Source of the DNA: Fusobacterium ulcerans ATCC 49185
Lineage (GTDB): Bacteria > Fusobacteriota > Fusobacteriia > Fusobacteriales > Fusobacteriaceae
Direction of reading: 5' to 3'
Assembly (NCBI RefSeq): GCF_900683735.1
Contig: NZ_LR215979.1
Coordinates: forward strand, 682,001 to 746,000
Length of the DNA: 64,000 bases
Below the pieces are notes generated by a model. The model worked only from the letters and a program-made list of their open reading frames with translations, made no database searches and had not been told where the DNA came from. Each line of letters begins with the position of its first letter. Within the stretch, counting starts at the first letter, position 1. The position numbers and the translations under genes are program-made. Below, piece by piece: positions 32,783 to 40,585 of the stretch.

Positions 32783-33168
32783 ATATTCTGTTCTATTTGA
32801 TAAAAACACTTTGGGTACCTAAGTAATTTAATAAATATTTAATTTTGTACTATTTATTTTGATATGGCTTATTTTTAAAGAGTTTTAAATGGTCCAAACT
32901 TCTCTTTTTTATTCAGTAATTTTCTCAAACACACAACAAAAGCTCCCTTGAGAGTGAGAGCTTTTGTTCGTAGAAATTAAAATGTAATAAAATAACAAAA
33001 TTCAAAAACAACAAACTATCTATATTCCTTGAAAATGAATAGATAAAAATGGGTATAAAATTACATGAAATTTTCTCGGGTGGTCACGCGTTGGTCACAA
33101 ATAGAAAATTTTATAGTATTTAATATTTAATACTAATATATTGTTGATAAAAATTTTAACATATAAAA
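32783..33168. other. Candidate prophage left end (attL region)
   Basis: A gene-free, AT-rich stretch. It contains a hairpin AACAAAAGCTC / GAGCTTTTGTT (32935-32968) that can end the integrase transcript, and the paired motifs GTGGTCAC and TTGGTCAC (33080-33098), which look like arm-type integrase sites. The core att sequence cannot be fixed because the right end is outside the window. Confidence 0.5.
32935..32968. terminator. Hairpin terminator at the prophage left edge
   Basis: An 11-bp stem AACAAAAGCTC / GAGCTTTTGTT with a 12-base loop, suited to end minus-strand transcription from the integrase gene. Confidence 0.65.
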
Positions 33169-34197
33169 TTAATTTATCTTTTCTATAGCTTTTTTGAGTT
33201 CATCTATACTTTTATGTGTGTATACTTGCTCAGTAAGATCAAAGCTGCTATGGCCAATTATATTTTTAATTGCTGTGGTATTTGCATCAGCATTATTTAA
33301 AAGTGTAGCAAAGGTATGCCTGCAATCATGGGCACTGTGATAGTGTAATTTTAATTCTTTTGTTAATTTATCTAAAGCTCTTCTATAATGTTGATGCTTT
33401 GCTCCATATGTATTACCTGGAAACTCAAAAATATATTCACTAGAAGTCATTTTATACCTATTGAGGATTAGTCTATATATTTTTGAATGGATTGGAACTA
33501 CTCTTTTTTTACCAGCATCTGTTTTTATTCCAGCTCCTTTGATAATTCCACTTTCTAAATCAACATTCTCTTTTTTCATAGCTATAATTTCACCAATACG
33601 CAATCCAGAATAAATCATAATGAGTGTTGTATCTACCTCTTCATGTTTATATAAATTATTCCATAATTCTTGTATTTCTTCATCAGTAAATGTTTTCTTT
33701 TCACGTTTAACCTCATGTTTTTTCCTGTATTCTAAAAATAGGCTATAGTCTTTTTCTATCAAGTCATTTTTCATAGCAAACTTAGAAACTTTGCTAAATA
33801 AGTTTTTTATTTCAATACCTATTGAATGGGTGTTTTCATCTAGAATTATTGAAAAATCTGTGTGACGCAATTCTTTAAATTTGACATTGTGTAAAATAAA
33901 ACATTTTTCAAACATTCTTTTATACACATATTGACGTTCCTTACTTAATAGAGGGAATTCATAATCAACCCATCTGTCATATATATTTTTAAAAGTAAGT
34001 TTATCAAGAGATAAATCCCTTGGGTTAGTTTGAAAAGCTGCTAAAGCTTCTACAGCTTCTTTTTTAGTTTTATAGCATCCTAAATTAACTCTGTAGGTTC
34101 TTCCATCAGAATTTTTAGTTGCTATTCTTACTCTCCAAGGATTACGCCTATTTCCAGTTAATTTGGTTATACTACCAGTTCCATTAGCTCTTTTCAT
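33169..34197 (-). CDS. Phage tyrosine integrase
   Basis: A 342-residue tyrosine recombinase: an N-terminal arm-binding part (ANGTGSITKLTGNRRNPWRVRIATKN), a core-binding domain (about 65-165) and the catalytic domain. The catalytic residues are visible as Arg in YSGLRIGEI, the His-x-x-Arg in SAHDCRHTFATLLN, His in IIGHSSFDLTEQ and Tyr in VYTH. It integrates and excises the prophage, and it lies at the left end next to presumed arm sites. Transcribed away from the cargo operon. Confidence 0.95.
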   Translation of the reverse strand: MKRANGTGSITKLTGNRRNPWRVRIATKNSDGRTYRVNLGCYKTKKEAVEALAAFQTNPRDLSLDKLTFKNIYDRWVDYEFPLLSKERQYVYKRMFEKCFILHNVKFKELRHTDFSIILDENTHSIGIEIKNLFSKVSKFAMKNDLIEKDYSLFLEYRKKHEVKREKKTFTDEEIQELWNNLYKHEEVDTTLIMIYSGLRIGEIIAMKKENVDLESGIIKGAGIKTDAGKKRVVPIHSKIYRLILNRYKMTSSEYIFEFPGNTYGAKHQHYRRALDKLTKELKLHYHSAHDCRHTFATLLNNADANTTAIKNIIGHSSFDLTEQVYTHKSIDELKKAIEKIN

Positions 34198-34249
34198 AAA
34201 ACAATCTCCTTAGTATTAAAACTATATTTCTATAAAATTTATTATCAAT

Positions 34250-34278
34250 ATAGTATATCGATAGCTATACGATGTCAA
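34250..34278 (-). promoter_or_regulatory. Integrase promoter with palindromic operator
   Basis: Minus-strand TTGACA (34273-34278), 17-base spacer and TACTAT (34250-34255). The spacer holds a palindrome (ATCG-ATAGCTAT-A-CGAT), a candidate site for the divergent XRE regulator. Confidence 0.65.
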
Positions 34279-34344
34279 TCTTTTTTTACTTTTTATGGAA
34301 AATAAGTTATAATATAATGAAAAATAAAAATTAAGGTGAGAATA

Positions 34345-34782
34345 ATGAGTTTTGGAAAAGAGTTAGAAAAAATAAGGAAAAAGAACAAAGATAGCCTTAG
34401 AAAATTAGCTGAAAAAACTGGAGTAACTCATAGTTATATTCAACAAATCGAAAATGGAACTCGACCTTCAAGTTTAGAATTTTTAGAAAAAGTAACAATA
34501 ATTTATTCAGAAGATAAAGAAGCTTTAGAATTAACATATTGTAAGGAAAAAATCCCTAAATCTATCTATAGTAGAATAGATGAAATGACTAATATAATAT
34601 TAAAAGAGGATTCTTTTAATATCTTTTTTTTAAAATTATTTAGTAAATTAGATATTAATGGAAAAAAACAAGTAATGGAATTGATTGTAAGTAAATTAGA
34701 AAAGCTGAGTGATGATGAGAAATACAAAAAAGATGAGAAGCTATTAGAAGAGATAAGAGAGTTTATAAAAAAAATTGGATAA
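34345..34782 (+). CDS. XRE-family transcriptional regulator at head of defence-like operon
   Basis: A 145-residue protein with an N-terminal HTH (residues 2-60: LRKLAEKTGVTHSYIQQIENGTRPSSLEFL) and a C-terminal helical part. The chosen ATG is 5-6 bases after AAGGTGAG. It lies 50 bases before the nuclease gene in the same direction, so it may control that operon and the divergent integrase promoter. Confidence 0.88.
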   Translation: MSFGKELEKIRKKNKDSLRKLAEKTGVTHSYIQQIENGTRPSSLEFLEKVTIIYSEDKEALELTYCKEKIPKSIYSRIDEMTNIILKEDSFNIFFLKLFSKLDINGKKQVMELIVSKLEKLSDDEKYKKDEKLLEEIREFIKKIG

Positions 34783-34832
34783 AATCATTTACAAGTTATA
34801 AATAAAAATATATACTTAAGAAAAGGTGAGTT

Positions 34833-35894
34833 ATGAACAATAAAAGACAGGCTACAGCTAGTGCAAAGGGGTACATTTTACAAAGTTATTTTGGAATATA
34901 TTTTTTCTTTAAAGATGAAAATTATAAAGAAATTGATTGGGTTAAAATTGAAGGAGAAAAAGAAGATATAGAAATTTATTATTATGATAAAACTAAGGAT
35001 TATATTCAAGTAAAAACTCAAGAAAAACCAGCAAAAGCCACTTGTTTTGATGGAAAAAAATTTAAAAAAGGAATTTTAACACTATATGAAGCCCTTGAAG
35101 TAGCTGAAAAAGAAGGTGAAAAAGTAAATAAACTTATTCTAGCTAATAATATGTTTTTTCAGGGAATAAAAAGATTAGATAAAAAAATAGAAAAAGGAGA
35201 AGAAGAAAATTTTATCTATAATTTATATGAAGATTTTTCAGATGAGGAAATTTCTGATTTTTCTAAAAAAGTTAATTATACTATAGATCAAAAGCTTTAT
35301 TTGGCTAGAATAGATGATTCTTTTTTATTGAATCAATCTAAAATTATCCCAGAGTTAAAAAAAATAATAAATAAGTTAGCATTGAATGACATTGAAAGTA
35401 ATATTTATGATGCTTTAAAAGTATTGTTTACTGAAAATAGTTGTGATCGTATAAAAAAAATTACCAAAAAAAATGTAGCATGGACATTTATAAAAAAGAA
35501 AATAAACCAAGAAAAAATAGTTAATAAATTTAATGAAGAATTTAGTAAAGAATTAGATGATTCAGATGTAACTGATATAGAGTTCTTGCTAGAAGATGTG
35601 AGTATTATTGATATGATAGAAAACTATTCGGAATACTATGAAATTTATATGCATTTCCAAAAATTAAGTGAGGATTTTTTTATAAGCAAGGGAAAGCCTA
35701 GTAAAAATAATATCAAAGAATTTATTGAATATATATCTATCCCCTTTAAAGAAAAAGAATATTTATATATAAAATGCTCAGATAATTACAAAGAACAAGA
35801 AATTAAACTTATTTATTATTTTTTCTCTTACTACATGTATTTGAAAAAAAATGATGCTAGAAAAATATATGATGAATTTGACATTAGGGGATGA
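34833..35894 (+). CDS. DUF4297/Cap4-like nuclease, effector of a two-gene defence-like module
   Basis: A 353-residue protein. Residues 7-65 match the N-terminal pattern of DUF4297/Cap4 nucleases of the PD-(D/E)xK fold: GYILQSYF (Gln17), KIEGEKEDIEI (Glu40, Asp45) and the core YIQVKT (Gln59, Lys61). The remaining 280 residues are helical with no motif that I recognise. In Lamassu and related systems a Cap4-type nuclease is paired with an SMC-like ATPase, as here: the ATPase begins 4 bases after this stop. Predicted to cut DNA when the ATPase senses invasion. Family assignment is by eye and not certain. Confidence 0.65.
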   Translation: MNNKRQATASAKGYILQSYFGIYFFFKDENYKEIDWVKIEGEKEDIEIYYYDKTKDYIQVKTQEKPAKATCFDGKKFKKGILTLYEALEVAEKEGEKVNKLILANNMFFQGIKRLDKKIEKGEEENFIYNLYEDFSDEEISDFSKKVNYTIDQKLYLARIDDSFLLNQSKIIPELKKIINKLALNDIESNIYDALKVLFTENSCDRIKKITKKNVAWTFIKKKINQEKIVNKFNEEFSKELDDSDVTDIEFLLEDVSIIDMIENYSEYYEIYMHFQKLSEDFFISKGKPSKNNIKEFIEYISIPFKEKEYLYIKCSDNYKEQEIKLIYYFFSYYMYLKKNDARKIYDEFDIRG

Positions 35895-35898
35895 AAAT

Positions 35899-37389
35899 AT
35901 GAAAATATCAAAATTAATAATAGAACATTCAGAAAAAAATTTAACCCTATTTCCTAGAAAAACAGTATATGATTTCGGAGAAAATACTTTAATAACTAGT
36001 CATGCTGGAAATACTCAAGGAAAAACTACTTTAATAAGATTTATTTTATATGCATTAGGTTATAAAATTCCTCAAACTGATGGAATGAAAATATATGAAT
36101 ACAAAACTAATCTAGAAGTTTTACATGATAATAAAAAATATTCTTTAATTAGAGATGGGCAAAAGCAATATATTACAGATGGAAACAATACAACACAACT
36201 TGTTCAAGCTAATGATTTGGGAGAATCTATTCCTATGCTAAGTATTGTTTTAGGAATAAAAAATGAATATATATCTAGTTCATTACTGGGGTGTTTTTAC
36301 ATAGATCAAGAAAAAGGTTGGACTTTATTGAACAGAGGTATAGTTATAGGAAAAATTAGATTTAATATTGAACAATTTCTTATAAATATTGAAAACAAAG
36401 TAGAATTTGAAAATTATTTTTTAGAAAACAGAACTCTTGAGAATGGAATAGAAAGAGCTAACTTTTTATTAAAAGTAATGAAAGAAAATTATATTTACAA
36501 TGAAACTCCAGAAGAAAATAGAAAAGAAATTATTAATACAATTAAAAATTTAGAAAAAGAAAAAAATATATTAAGTCAAAAGATTTATTCAAAAAAAAGA
36601 GAACTAGATATTTTAAAAGATATTTTATTTCAAAATGAAAACTTTGCTAAAAAGATTGAAGATATGAATATTATTATCAATTACAATGGAAAAGATATAG
36701 TAGTTAATAAAGAGAACTTAAAGTCATATGATTATAACAATGATATTTTAGAAATGAAAAGAAATGAAATAGAATTAGAAATAGTGTACTTAGAGAAAGA
36801 AAATAATAAAATAAAAACTGAAATAAGAAAAATAAGGAAAGATAATGAAGAAACAGATTCTAACAATGAATTGTCAAAACTTTTTAGCAAATTAAAAAAC
36901 AATGACTTTTCAGCAGAAGAATTAGAATTGCTTAAAGATTCTAATAGAAGAAAAATAAAAGAAAATAATAAAATTATAAATGAAGAAATAAAAAAAACTA
37001 TTGATGAATTTTGGGAAATATTGCTTCCTATTTTAAATGATTTAGAAATAGGGAAAGAATACAAAGATAAAAAAATAATTTTAACTAATGATATGGCAGG
37101 AAAATCAGGAACACAGATGCATCAGTTATCATTAGCTTATAAAATTGCATTAACTAAATTGGTTGAAGTTAAGTTTGGAATAAAACTTCCGTTTATAATT
37201 GATTCTCCAAGAGCAAGTGAAATGAAAGAAGAAGTAGCTACTCTAATGTTAGAAATTACTAAAAAATATTTACCTAATAACCAATTAATAGTTTCTTCTG
37301 TTTTCTTTGATTTTGAAACAAATTTTCAGTTTGATAAAAAAATTTTTTTAGAAGATGGAGTGGTTAAAGAATTAGAAAAATTTATTTAA
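35899..37389 (+). CDS. SMC/ABC-like ATPase, partner of Cap4-like nuclease
   Basis: A 496-residue ATPase. Walker A is HAGNTQGKTTLIRFILYALGY (about residue 35; first Gly of the loop replaced by Ala). A coiled-coil-rich middle spans about 175-345 (NRKEIINTIKNLEKEKNIL, ELEIVYLEKENNKIKTEIRKI). The C-terminal head has a degenerate signature (MHQLSLAYKIALTKL) and Walker B/D-loop LPFIIDSPRASEM followed by LIVSSVF. This resembles DUF2326/LmuB-type ATPases but with a short coiled coil. The ATG has AGGGGATG upstream, overlapping the nuclease stop. Confidence 0.7.
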   Translation: MKISKLIIEHSEKNLTLFPRKTVYDFGENTLITSHAGNTQGKTTLIRFILYALGYKIPQTDGMKIYEYKTNLEVLHDNKKYSLIRDGQKQYITDGNNTTQLVQANDLGESIPMLSIVLGIKNEYISSSLLGCFYIDQEKGWTLLNRGIVIGKIRFNIEQFLINIENKVEFENYFLENRTLENGIERANFLLKVMKENYIYNETPEENRKEIINTIKNLEKEKNILSQKIYSKKRELDILKDILFQNENFAKKIEDMNIIINYNGKDIVVNKENLKSYDYNNDILEMKRNEIELEIVYLEKENNKIKTEIRKIRKDNEETDSNNELSKLFSKLKNNDFSAEELELLKDSNRRKIKENNKIINEEIKKTIDEFWEILLPILNDLEIGKEYKDKKIILTNDMAGKSGTQMHQLSLAYKIALTKLVEVKFGIKLPFIIDSPRASEMKEEVATLMLEITKKYLPNNQLIVSSVFFDFETNFQFDKKIFLEDGVVKELEKFI

Positions 37390-37448
37390 GTCTGAATAGT
37401 AATTTTTAAGAAATAAACTTTTTTATCAAAATAATAAAGAATGATTTA

Positions 37449-37480
37449 AAACTCACACTTTGAGTAGTGTGAGTTTTTTT
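37449..37480 (+). terminator. Terminator after the nuclease-ATPase operon
   Basis: Stem AAACTCACACT / AGTGTGAGTTT with a 6-base loop and TTTTTTT. It closes the operon. Confidence 0.88.
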
Positions 37481-37635
37481 GTTTAAAATAGGCTAATATT
37501 TATTACTTAGTTAATTTAATAATGGTAATTTTATCAACTTAATATTTTTATGTTCTTTCTTAAATTAATACACCAAGAGTGTAAAAAGAAATTAAAGTTG
37601 ATACATTTTTTATGTTTTTAAGTTATTTTTATAGT

Positions 37636-37664
37636 TTGACATTTTATATTTTTAATTATAAAAT
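37636..37664 (+). promoter_or_regulatory. Promoter of the sce7726-type gene
   Basis: TTGACA, 17-base spacer, TAAAAT, 31 bases before the start codon. The rest of the 306-base gap (37390-37695) is AT-rich and holds only the terminator and this promoter. Confidence 0.7.
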
Positions 37665-37695
37665 AGCTGTATAATATTTCTAGGAGGAAAGTGTC

Positions 37696-38301
37696 TTGAA
37701 AATTTATGATAAAGATATTAGACCAATTTTATATGATAAAATTTCAAACTTGAAGGAATTTACTTCAGATAATACTTCTATTATTATAGATGAATTTCCT
37801 GTAGTTGAAGGATCTGCTAGAGTTGATATAGCTGTGGTTAATGGAAAACTACATGGTTTTGAAATTAAAAGTGAACAAGATACATTAGATAGACTTTCAG
37901 ATCAAATATTCTTTTATAATATGGTTTTTGATAAAATGACATTGGTTGTTTCTGAGAAGTTTAAAGATAAATTAATAAACATAATTCCTAAATGGTGGGG
38001 GATATATTATATAAAAACAGTTGGAAATAAACCTAAGTTAGTTGTAGAAAAAAAATCAAAATTGAATAAAGATATTAAAATAGAGGCATTTCTATCCTTA
38101 TTATGGAGAAATGAAATGCTGGAATTATTGTTATCTAATAATATTAAAAAAGGAGTGAAATCTAAAAATAAAGAAGATCTCACTCAAATTATTATAAAAA
38201 ATTTTTCTTTTAATGAAATTAAAAACTTCACTAGACTTAAATTAAAGACTCGTAATATTGAGAGAGCTGTTCTAGTATCAAAACTATGTGATGATTTGTA
38301 G
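37696..38301 (+). CDS. sce7726-family protein, PD-(D/E)xK nuclease-like
   Basis: A 201-residue protein. DEFPVVEGSARVDIAVVNGKLHGFEIKSEQDTLDRL has the PD-(D/E)xK pattern: Glu33/Glu38, Asp44 and Glu56-Ile-Lys58, followed by a helix with QIFFYNMVFDKMTLVVSEKF. This matches my recollection of the sce7726 family, which is commonly found beside sce7725 (beta-family) genes. Start is TTG after AGGAGGAAAG. It has its own promoter and its 3' end overlaps the convergent partner gene. Role unknown; a nuclease in a two-gene defence pair is plausible. Confidence 0.75.
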   Translation: MKIYDKDIRPILYDKISNLKEFTSDNTSIIIDEFPVVEGSARVDIAVVNGKLHGFEIKSEQDTLDRLSDQIFFYNMVFDKMTLVVSEKFKDKLINIIPKWWGIYYIKTVGNKPKLVVEKKSKLNKDIKIEAFLSLLWRNEMLELLLSNNIKKGVKSKNKEDLTQIIIKNFSFNEIKNFTRLKLKTRNIERAVLVSKLCDDL

Positions 38302-39343
38302 TATATTCTATTACTTGTTTAGGTGTTCCCTTGCTTTTAGGATCATCTAATATTTCTTTTAGTTTTTTATCTCCAGTTGAAAAATCTTCTCCTAAAAATT
38401 TATCAGAATCTATTAGCTTTTTTATAAGCTCCTTGATAGAAATTTTAGGTGTTTGCAATTTTTTATCAGCATTTTTTCCTTTTAATAAAAAATATGACTC
38501 TGGTAAAGTATATCTTATTTTTGCCAAAATGCTTTGTTTATTTATTTTTGAAAAATCTATCATAACATCAACATTTTTAGCTATTCCATAATCTGAATAA
38601 ATAAATTTTAAATTTTTAAATTTAGAACATAGTTTTTTAAAAATTTCAAACTCTAATTTTAAAAATTCTTTTGTTCCTCCATTCTCAATTTCTTCAAGAT
38701 TTTTAGGTAAAGAAGATGAAGATATGATTATTTCATTTTTTAGATCATTTTTTTCAAAAAATTCTAATATTTTTTTTGCTTGACTATAATTTTCTCTAGT
38801 ATTGCTATCATTGTATGCATCTTGTAGATCAAGATTAATCAATATTTTAAATTCTTTTTCATATTTTTTTACAATATTTAAAATTTCTTCTTCTTCCATT
38901 TCATCTATAAAAATTGGCAATTTCATTCTTAAAATAAAGTTTTTTATTTTTTTATTTTGCAATATATTTTTTTCAAAGATAGAAAAATATTTACTTTCAA
39001 CTACTGGAATAATATTTTCATATTCTTCTACCATTGTTTCTAAAAACTCATAATGATTTTTACTATCTAAGCCATAAAAAGAAGCACAAGTTTTATCTAT
39101 ATTTTTTTTCAGTGATTTTTTTGTTTTTTCTATTTCCTGCTCTTGCTCACTTTCAGTTTTAAATTTTTTTAATTCTTCAATTGTTTTCATTTCAAATATT
39201 GGAATCATTTTATTTTTATTTTTTTTTTCTAACATATAATAACCATTAAACTCACCTTGATTTGCTTTTAAAATAGGCATATAAATAATATTGTCTATAA
39301 TTTTAACCTCCTTTGATTGATGTATTGTTAGATCATTGTTCAT
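38237..39343 (-). CDS. Beta-family (sce7725-type) protein
   Basis: A 368-residue protein. The N-terminal YMPILKANQGEFNGYYMLEKKNKNKMIPIFEMK matches the family named after phage T4 beta protein (Y-P-I-L-K-x-x-x-G-E). Alternating strands and helices (IIPVVESKYF, FKILINLDLQDA, NEIIISSSSLP, LKFIYSDYGIAKN) suggest a TIM-barrel-like fold. AAGGAGGTAAATA precedes the start. Its last 65 bases overlap the convergent sce7726-type gene. Function is not established. Confidence 0.75.
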   Translation of the reverse strand: MNNDLTIHQSKEVKIIDNIIYMPILKANQGEFNGYYMLEKKNKNKMIPIFEMKTIEELKKFKTESEQEQEIEKTKKSLKKNIDKTCASFYGLDSKNHYEFLETMVEEYENIIPVVESKYFSIFEKNILQNKKIKNFILRMKLPIFIDEMEEEEILNIVKKYEKEFKILINLDLQDAYNDSNTRENYSQAKKILEFFEKNDLKNEIIISSSSLPKNLEEIENGGTKEFLKLEFEIFKKLCSKFKNLKFIYSDYGIAKNVDVMIDFSKINKQSILAKIRYTLPESYFLLKGKNADKKLQTPKISIKELIKKLIDSDKFLGEDFSTGDKKLKEILDDPKSKGTPKQVIEYTTNHHIVLILEQLSQYYESLI

Positions 39344-39554
39344 TATTTACCTCCTTTTTATCTTGATTTGTAAAATTTATGTTAAATTTTTTCACTTTAG
39401 GATAGTAAAATCAAAGTTATTTAGTTATGATATTTAATTTTATTTAAAAGCAATATTAATTATTTTTTATAAAATTATTTCCAGTTTTAATAAATTTAAG
39501 AATAATTTAAAATTCTTACTTGAATATGATTCATGTGAATTAAAGATGTTTTAT

Positions 39555-40229
39555 TTAGAAAATTCTCTGTTTAAAAGTGTTCAAAATAGGAGTGTTATAA
39601 CCTTCTATAAATCTTGAAACAAATAAATGAGAAGTAGCTTCAGAAAGACCACAATTATAGTGAAGAAATAGTTTCAATCTTAATGCTAACGAAGGTGAAT
39701 CAATACCAAATTTTTGACAAAGAAATTTAAAACTATGTTCTTTGATAATATGATTATAAAGTGCCATATCATTAATCATAAAAATTAAAGCGCCAAAGTC
39801 TGCTTCTGCTTCATCTCTTTGCTCAGATTCAGAATAAGCAAAATAATTTAAAATTTTAGAAAAGTTTTGAGAATGCAGATTAGATTTTGTATGCATTAAT
39901 CCATGAGTTGTTTCATGCATTTTTGTTAAATTTTGTTTTTCTTTACTAATATTAGAATTAACATTAACCCCTATAACTATTTTTCCATTTTCTCCTCTTA
40001 CTAAACTTCCAGCTATGATATAAGCTTTGTCAGATAAAGGATAATCAGCATAAGTATAATTAAATTTTTCTTCATAATATTTTTGAATTTCTTTGAAAGT
40101 GATATCATTGAAAGAAATTTTAAAACAATCATTAATATCTCTAATTACTTGTGTTATTTTAAAGTGAAGAAATCTATACATCTCTTCTGAAACCTCAATA
40201 TTTCCATAACGCATCCAGAAATCACTCAA
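39555..40229 (-). CDS. ImmA/IrrE-family metallopeptidase
   Basis: A 224-residue protein with the zinc motif HETTHGLMH near residue 105 and a further acidic ligand region (EAEADFGALIFMI). ImmA-type proteases cleave a CI-like repressor to induce a prophage, as in ICEBs1. Its start overlaps the repressor stop (ATGA-type coupling), so it is made together with its presumed substrate. Confidence 0.9.
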   Translation of the reverse strand: MSDFWMRYGNIEVSEEMYRFLHFKITQVIRDINDCFKISFNDITFKEIQKYYEEKFNYTYADYPLSDKAYIIAGSLVRGENGKIVIGVNVNSNISKEKQNLTKMHETTHGLMHTKSNLHSQNFSKILNYFAYSESEQRDEAEADFGALIFMINDMALYNHIIKEHSFKFLCQKFGIDSPSLALRLKLFLHYNCGLSEATSHLFVSRFIEGYNTPILNTFKQRIF

Positions 40230-40585
40230 TCCTTTTTATTTTTTAATTTTGAAATTAGGTAATCAGTAAAAGAATCAAGTTCTTTCTTCAATTCTTCTAT
40301 ATCAGCAGTTTTTAATCCATCAGTATCTATTTTATATGTAATAAAAGGGTCTTCTATAGAAGTTGCATTTTCTACATTTTCTTTTTCCCATCCCATTAAG
40401 ATACCAGGAGACACTTTTAATACTTCTGCAATTTTTTCTATTTTATCTGAAGGAATATTAGTAATAACTCCACTTTCGTATCTTTGAATAGTTTGTTTAC
40501 TTGTTCCTACTTCATTAGCTAAGGCTTCTAAAGTAAAGTTTCTTTTTAATCGATATTTTTTTATATTAGTATTTAATATTCCCAC
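40226..40585 (-). CDS. CI-like phage repressor (XRE family)
   Basis: A 119-residue repressor. HTH at residues 8-62 (NFTLEALANEVGTSKQTIQRYESG) and an acidic C-terminal tail. Without a LexA-type peptidase domain, cleavage would depend on the ImmA/IrrE gene coupled to it. It faces the Cro-like gene across the operator region. AAGGAGG box before the start. Confidence 0.9.
   Translation of the reverse strand: MGILNTNIKKYRLKRNFTLEALANEVGTSKQTIQRYESGVITNIPSDKIEKIAEVLKVSPGILMGWEKENVENATSIEDPFITYKIDTDGLKTADIEELKKELDSFTDYLISKLKNKKD

Follow-up and report, generated by a model that had tools for sequence, protein, structure and literature searches.

A prophage of Fusobacterium ulcerans ATCC 49185 carries two convergent genes, one of the sce7726 family and one of the beta family, whose coding sequences overlap tail to tail. 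As judged by sequence comparison, the pair is the beta and cII parts of the gop-beta-cII system of satellite P4, without gop. The kind of system is therefore a known one, and what is new is the gop-less form with a phylum-wide antisense overlap that appears to be dual coding. The pair lies in a window of 64,000 nucleotides, the whole stretch of DNA that was analysed (contig NZ_LR215979.1, positions 682,001 to 746,000), and positions below are those of the window. The features discussed are as follows.

34336-37389: defence-like module, PADLOC PDC-M46A/B
37636-37664, + strand: promoter-like site of the sce7726 gene, TTGACA-17-TAAAAT, agreeing with the consensus at 11 of 12 bases, a consensus match only
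37682-37687, + strand: AGGAGG, Shine-Dalgarno-like, separated by 8 nt from the TTG start, read from the sequence
37696-38301, + strand: sce7726-family gene (P4 cII relative), 201 aa, TTG start, open ORF
38237-38301, both strands: 65 bp of apparent dual-coding antisense overlap between sce7726 residues 181-201 and beta residues 348-368
38237-39343, - strand: beta-family gene, 368 aa, ATG start, open ORF
39350-39354, - strand: GGAGG, Shine-Dalgarno-like, for beta, read from the sequence
39555-40229, same strand as beta and upstream of it: ImmA/IrrE-like gene, 211 nt from beta
40226-40585, same strand as beta and upstream of it: HTH gene

The coordinates of the two reading frames and of their 65-base overlap agree with the original prediction, which had a 201-aa protein and a 368-aa protein meeting tail to tail. 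The TTGACA/TAAAAT promoter that had been assigned to the first gene is also present and is the best promoter-like site within 36000-40500, such sites being overall not enriched relative to shuffled sequences (31 observed, 35 expected). Assignment of the first protein to the sce7726 family was borne out by NF033832 (1.7e-49, 168.3 bits against a cut-off of 70), and the PADLOC model cll matched it at 1.6e-33. The second protein had been called a T4 beta-family protein of the sce7725 type. Its place in the beta family stood (PF14350 Beta_protein, 1.4e-41, 143.6 bits against a gathering cut-off of 27), but the family takes its name from satellite P4 and not from T4, and the label sce7725 was lost: NF033831 (sce7725) had no match to the window beta at E up to 0.1 and matched only 1 of 56 relatives, weakly (2e-4). 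Among PADLOC models the protein is nearer PD-Lambda-2_C (3.3e-40) than beta (5.2e-10). The view that the two families lack an assigned function also had to be given up, since they are beta and cII of gop-beta-cII (PMC9122126), and beta relatives are component C of PD-lambda-2.

The predicted structure of the sce7726 protein (pLDDT 95.5) has a PD-(D/E)xK nuclease fold and a C-terminal SAP-like helical part, in keeping with the nuclease fold proposed for it. Asp44 and Glu56-x-Lys58, the residues originally singled out, are present and, together with E33, S59, D62, R66 and Q70, are invariant in 63 diverse homologues. Structural matches of the model were mostly to restriction-type and repair nucleases, with 3dnx the best at Z 10, PaqCI at 8.3 and Can2 at 7.6; the fold match is a general one, its top Z of 10 being to an uncharacterised protein. 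The C-terminal part resembles a domain of FAN1, and the SAP sequence match was sub-threshold. PaqCI, Can2, EndoMS, YaeQ and SfsA share the fold and the D-(11)-ExK arrangement with a downstream Q, but they have no detectable sequence similarity to the sce7726 protein, which is smaller and has the SAP-like C-terminal part. Sequence searches for solved-structure relatives found none. As modelled, the sce7726 protein has the core fold and the acidic/lysine active site of the PD-(D/E)xK superfamily.

The beta protein was predicted to be a TIM barrel (pLDDT 85.9). Because the first 16 residues of the model are of low confidence, the true start could lie slightly downstream of the annotated ATG. E31, R139, D170, D251 and H352 are near-invariant polar residues, several of them near strand ends in the model, and are suggestive of a ligand pocket or an active site. 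A specific enzyme class was considered and dropped, the fold matches being a broad TIM-barrel set with a best Z of 12.9 and many ties. The last helix, residues 341-367, is mostly encoded in the overlap. Rows from phage records were left out of the alignments used for structure prediction.

As had been proposed, the pair occupies a prophage cargo site beside another defence-like operon. The integrase (33169-34197, phrog_1) precedes the defence-like module, and G+C content is ~22-26% over the integrase-proximal cargo (33000-40500), dropping to ~22% over the cargo itself, and ~30% on both flanks. The pair is followed by the HTH, ImmA-like and divergent Cro-like genes, then by KilA-N/antirepressor and replisome organiser genes; farther along are ORFs that read, by eye, as terminase, portal, protease, capsid, tail sheath and tape measure. 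Two genes adjoining the pair at 34833-37389 match the PADLOC candidates PDC-M46A (6e-16) and PDC-M46B (1.6e-81) and read as Cap4-nuclease-like (0.0035) and as a Lamassu-LmuB-like ATPase; an HTH gene precedes them and a terminator-like hairpin (37448-37477) follows. On the other side of the pair, the HTH and ImmA/IrrE-like genes (39555-40585) overlap by 4 nt and sit between beta and the divergent Cro-like gene. The ImmA-like protein matches the phage family phrog_1516, and these two genes could be a phage repressor module or part of a defence unit.

The expectation that the two families are commonly neighbours was confirmed. A beta profile, assembled from the loci in iterative rounds, detected beta in 149 of the 164 sce7726-anchored loci, and in every one of the 149 it is convergent with sce7726; 136 of these pairs overlap by 4-155 nt, and the other 13 are 0-37 nt apart. 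The 15 loci without beta include about five at a contig edge. The two scans anchored on sce7726 alone took in 79 viral loci and, from genomes, the best 80 of 149, and in about 9 of these 159 the sce7726 gene lacks beta though the contig continues; sce7726 stands alone in L004, L074, L079, L142, L144 and L150, among others. Anchoring on beta gave convergent pairs as well, in 15 of 15 viral loci and in all 6 loci that whole-genome PF14350 searches recovered, one of which is the window's own; a viral scan using the window beta alone gave no match. Genomes were sampled thinly at class level. Among 389 whole genomes, PF14350 and above-cut-off NF033832 matches occurred in exactly the same five, again including the window's own. 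Distances among the sce7726 proteins are correlated with those among the betas (Mantel r 0.71, 0 of 2000 permutations). Exceptions to the pairing are, besides the lone sce7726 genes, the PD-lambda-2-like plasmid loci L188, L189 and L195, which have beta without an annotated sce7726 gene.

Lone sce7726-family genes were also seen in phages. Staphylococcus phages of the Romulus/Remus/Stau2 type (~50 records) and Gordonia phages (4 records, including DumpsterDude and Powerball) carry them with no beta found by tblastn with the window beta. These may represent use of the fold as a phage nuclease or in counter-defence.

Both family matches enter the overlap: that of sce7726 spans residues 4-187, with the overlap beginning at 181, and that of beta spans 21-354, with the overlap beginning at ~348. 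The overlap contains beta NHH 350-352 and sce7726 K184 and R186. The betas were grouped at 50% identity into 65 clusters, and a single phase of overlap, 123:132 (length mod 3 = 2), was found in 50 of the 57 overlapping clusters; among overlaps of at least 50 nt, 59 of 60 loci were in this phase. Of the E. coli convergent overlaps that exceed 4 nt, 46% are in this phase (PMC2174442), and by our own arithmetic the excess over that baseline is ~six standard deviations. Further, in 37 of 61 beta-cluster representatives, which are less than 50% identical, the distance from the codon of sce7726 K184 to that of beta H352 is exactly 45 nt, as judged from two independently built protein alignments. Among these 37, overlap length varies from 20 to 134 nt. 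The constant spacing means that the conserved sce7726 end LKxRxxWR faces the conserved beta end NHHIxxVxxQLxN. According to the record titles, the 45-nt representatives include Bacillota, Acidobacteriota, Myxococcota, Nitrospirota, Planctomycetota, Bacteroidota, Omnitrophota, Gemmatimonadota, Actinomycetota and Pseudomonadota. The P4-type members differ, in that the sce7726 tail is longer and the overlap is little or absent.

Within clusters, third-position identity at codons whose amino acid is unchanged was higher in the overlap than elsewhere for both genes: 0.78 versus 0.53 for beta, with 16 of 17 clusters showing the rise, and 0.80 versus 0.53 for sce7726, with 16 of 18 clusters doing so. 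Amino-acid identity in the overlap was no lower for beta and slightly lower for sce7726. A conserved terminator or RNA structure was considered as the cause of the kept overlap and was rejected, since none was seen generally at the junctions; terminator-like sites were found in 5 and 9 of the 65 loci, with mean folding z values of -0.4 and -0.8. The method does recover the P4 cII terminator, and at the window junction it found no intrinsic terminator between sce7726 and beta. The raised third-position identity in both genes, together with the lack of a general RNA structure, favours true dual coding over an RNA element. Because the arrangement, often in the same register, recurs in very distant bacteria, the interlocked pair appears from these comparisons to be a unit frozen long ago, and the overlap not to be due to chance. 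We know of no other tail-to-tail antisense overlap whose register is kept across many bacterial phyla, as far as a limited literature search extends, and a partial search found no publication describing the conserved overlap. In one Virgibacillus locus (L018, 4995-5609) an sce7726 gene with no detectable beta ends in PQLCDDLQQS, a residue pattern of the type found elsewhere antisense to beta NHH; tblastn found no beta relic in L018.

Among the closest known systems is gop-beta-cII of P4 (PADLOC gop_beta_cll), which protects E. coli against λ and P1 and in which gop is toxic without beta, leading its authors to suggest abortive infection (PMC9122126). A limited literature search found no reported role for P4 cII. 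In the P4 genome gop (247-648, +) and beta (651-1718, +) converge on cII (1746-2540, -), which is annotated 'sce7726 family'; as in the window, beta and cII are convergent and lie in a mobile element with an adjoining integrase. P4 differs in that beta and cII are separated by a 27 nt gap with an annotated terminator, and its cII has a longer C-terminal tail. Since P4 has no overlap, the overlap is dispensable in the P4 branch. The window has the convergent beta and cII of this system but not the gop beside beta: a profile from P4 and Pmp11 found no gop in the window, and no ORF longer than 33 aa lies between beta and the ImmA-like gene. The window beta is, as noted above, nearer the PADLOC PD-Lambda-2_C model. 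PD-lambda-2 consists of HigB-like A, XRE-peptidase B and beta-like C, the last of the same family as the window beta, and its component C is needed for defence, although the toxin is neutralised without it (PMC9519451). As published, PD-lambda-2 is without an sce7726 gene (PMC9519451), whereas the window is without A or B by PADLOC, and genome G000 has no match to PDLC03982, for component B, at E 1e-20. The window HTH/ImmA pair was tried as a member of PD-lambda-2 and set aside, no model matching it. The E. coli Rac prophage pair (Rac-SA53) is likewise a convergent, gop-less pair of two genes, with a 41 nt overlap, and of 5,426 complete E. coli genomes, 93 carry Rac-type Beta/CII-like pairs. 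The Rac-SA53 pair differs from the window pair in lying among other phage genes, beside hok and not beside a repressor; its sce7726 protein is 35% identical to the window's.

The gene upstream of beta varies. It is gop in 24 loci of the P4/Pasteurella type, and PD-lambda-2B lies directly upstream in 5 of the 65 clusters, with gaps of -28 to +26 nt, and in genomes G274 and G349. In the prophage loci L010, L012 and L101, beta follows cI-type repressors with an S24 peptidase, the Agrobacterium plasmid locus L193 repeats the window order (HTH, ImmA/IrrE, beta, convergent sce7726), and the remaining loci have no obvious third partner. Because the upstream partner varies, the constant part is beta-sce7726. 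Strong PD-lambda-2B matches before beta, with a convergent sce7726 gene, were seen in L036 (5001-7828, Nitrospirae), L088 (1608-4453, Omnitrophota), G274 and G349; these are PD-lambda-2-like loci that may have an extra nuclease component.

We propose that the pair is a two-gene anti-phage cargo sited in the prophage's lysogeny region, the beta-cII core without gop, in which sce7726 is the DNA-cutting effector and beta the control or sensor; the chances for and against this proposal seem to us evenly balanced. The sce7726 protein would cut DNA by means of its predicted PD-(D/E)xK active site, with the SAP-like tail serving for DNA binding. Beta, whose predicted TIM barrel has conserved polar residues in a pocket, would restrain or license sce7726 and read the trigger. 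A third gene upstream of beta (gop, an XRE-M78 peptidase, CI or none) would set the trigger or add a second toxin. Less firmly, convergent transcription might yield mutual antisense RNA and keep both products low in the uninfected lysogen; read-through between the two genes is plausible because no intrinsic terminator separates them. The defence-cargo proposal draws on the PADLOC matches, the convergent layout in P4, the known defence by gop-beta-cII and the need for PD-lambda-2C; on the pairing, orientation, phase, 45 nt register, third-position identity and correlated distances; and on the nuclease fold with its invariant residues and the PD-lambda-2B or cI-type repressors before beta. Against it, the lone sce7726 loci and lone-beta plasmid loci indicate that each protein can work apart, beta acts in P4 as the antitoxin of gop, P4 lacks the overlap, and the sce7726 fold match is a general one. 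In a bolder version, which we think rather unlikely, beta-sce7726 would be the common core of several separately named systems (gop-beta-cII, many PD-lambda-2-like loci and the prophage pairs), and the overlap found across phyla would be a regulatory lock under selection. Either gene, when transcribed, would then repress its partner, and an infection-induced shift in transcription would flip the pair from safe to active.

The overlap might instead be neutral, an ordinary co-spreading defence pair having become entangled so that the two genes are inseparable without damage to both, with no regulatory role; we give this a little less than an even chance. An ancestral overlap free of indels would by itself keep phase and register, the junction has no conserved terminator or RNA structure, and P4, which with its kin overlaps little or not at all, still defends (PMC9122126). 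Yet the overlap is kept in 136 of 149 loci though stops have moved (20-134 nt in the same register), so that shortening was possible, and the convergent orientation is never broken in paired loci. That a shifted stop codon in one gene made the overlap, by chance or as an annotation artefact, is almost certainly wrong: convergent overlaps are general in bacteria (58 in E. coli; PMC2174442), but here the overlap is reached by the two family models and by the conserved C-terminal motif of each protein, and the comparative data, with the arrangement recurring in 136 loci in fixed register, already refute the idea. It is doubtful that the pair is a toxin-antitoxin system, with sce7726 the nuclease toxin, beta the antitoxin, and abortive infection following when phage shut-off depletes beta. 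The pairing is nearly strict, and in P4 beta neutralises gop and abortive infection was proposed (PMC9122126); the lone sce7726 genes would, however, not be easily tolerated if lethal, PD-lambda-2C is unnecessary for toxin neutralisation (PMC9519451), and beta is a large TIM barrel, unlike the usual antitoxins. Less probable still is a larger unit, in which the HTH (40226-40585) and ImmA/IrrE-like (39555-40229) genes belong with the pair as a split PD-lambda-2B. The gene order of plasmid locus L193 and the fused PD-lambda-2B directly before beta in five clusters speak for such a unit, but neither the HTH nor the ImmA-like protein of the window matches PD-lambda-2B, and the phrog_1516 ImmA-like gene, 211 nt from beta, faces the divergent Cro-like gene like a phage repressor module.

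If the register conservation holds, the pair is well suited to testing whether antisense overlap of genes can be selected for. A shared beta-nuclease core, if true, would unite gop-beta-cII with part of the PD-lambda-2 family, and sce7726 may then have been missed as a part of PD-lambda-2-like loci in bacteria other than E. coli.
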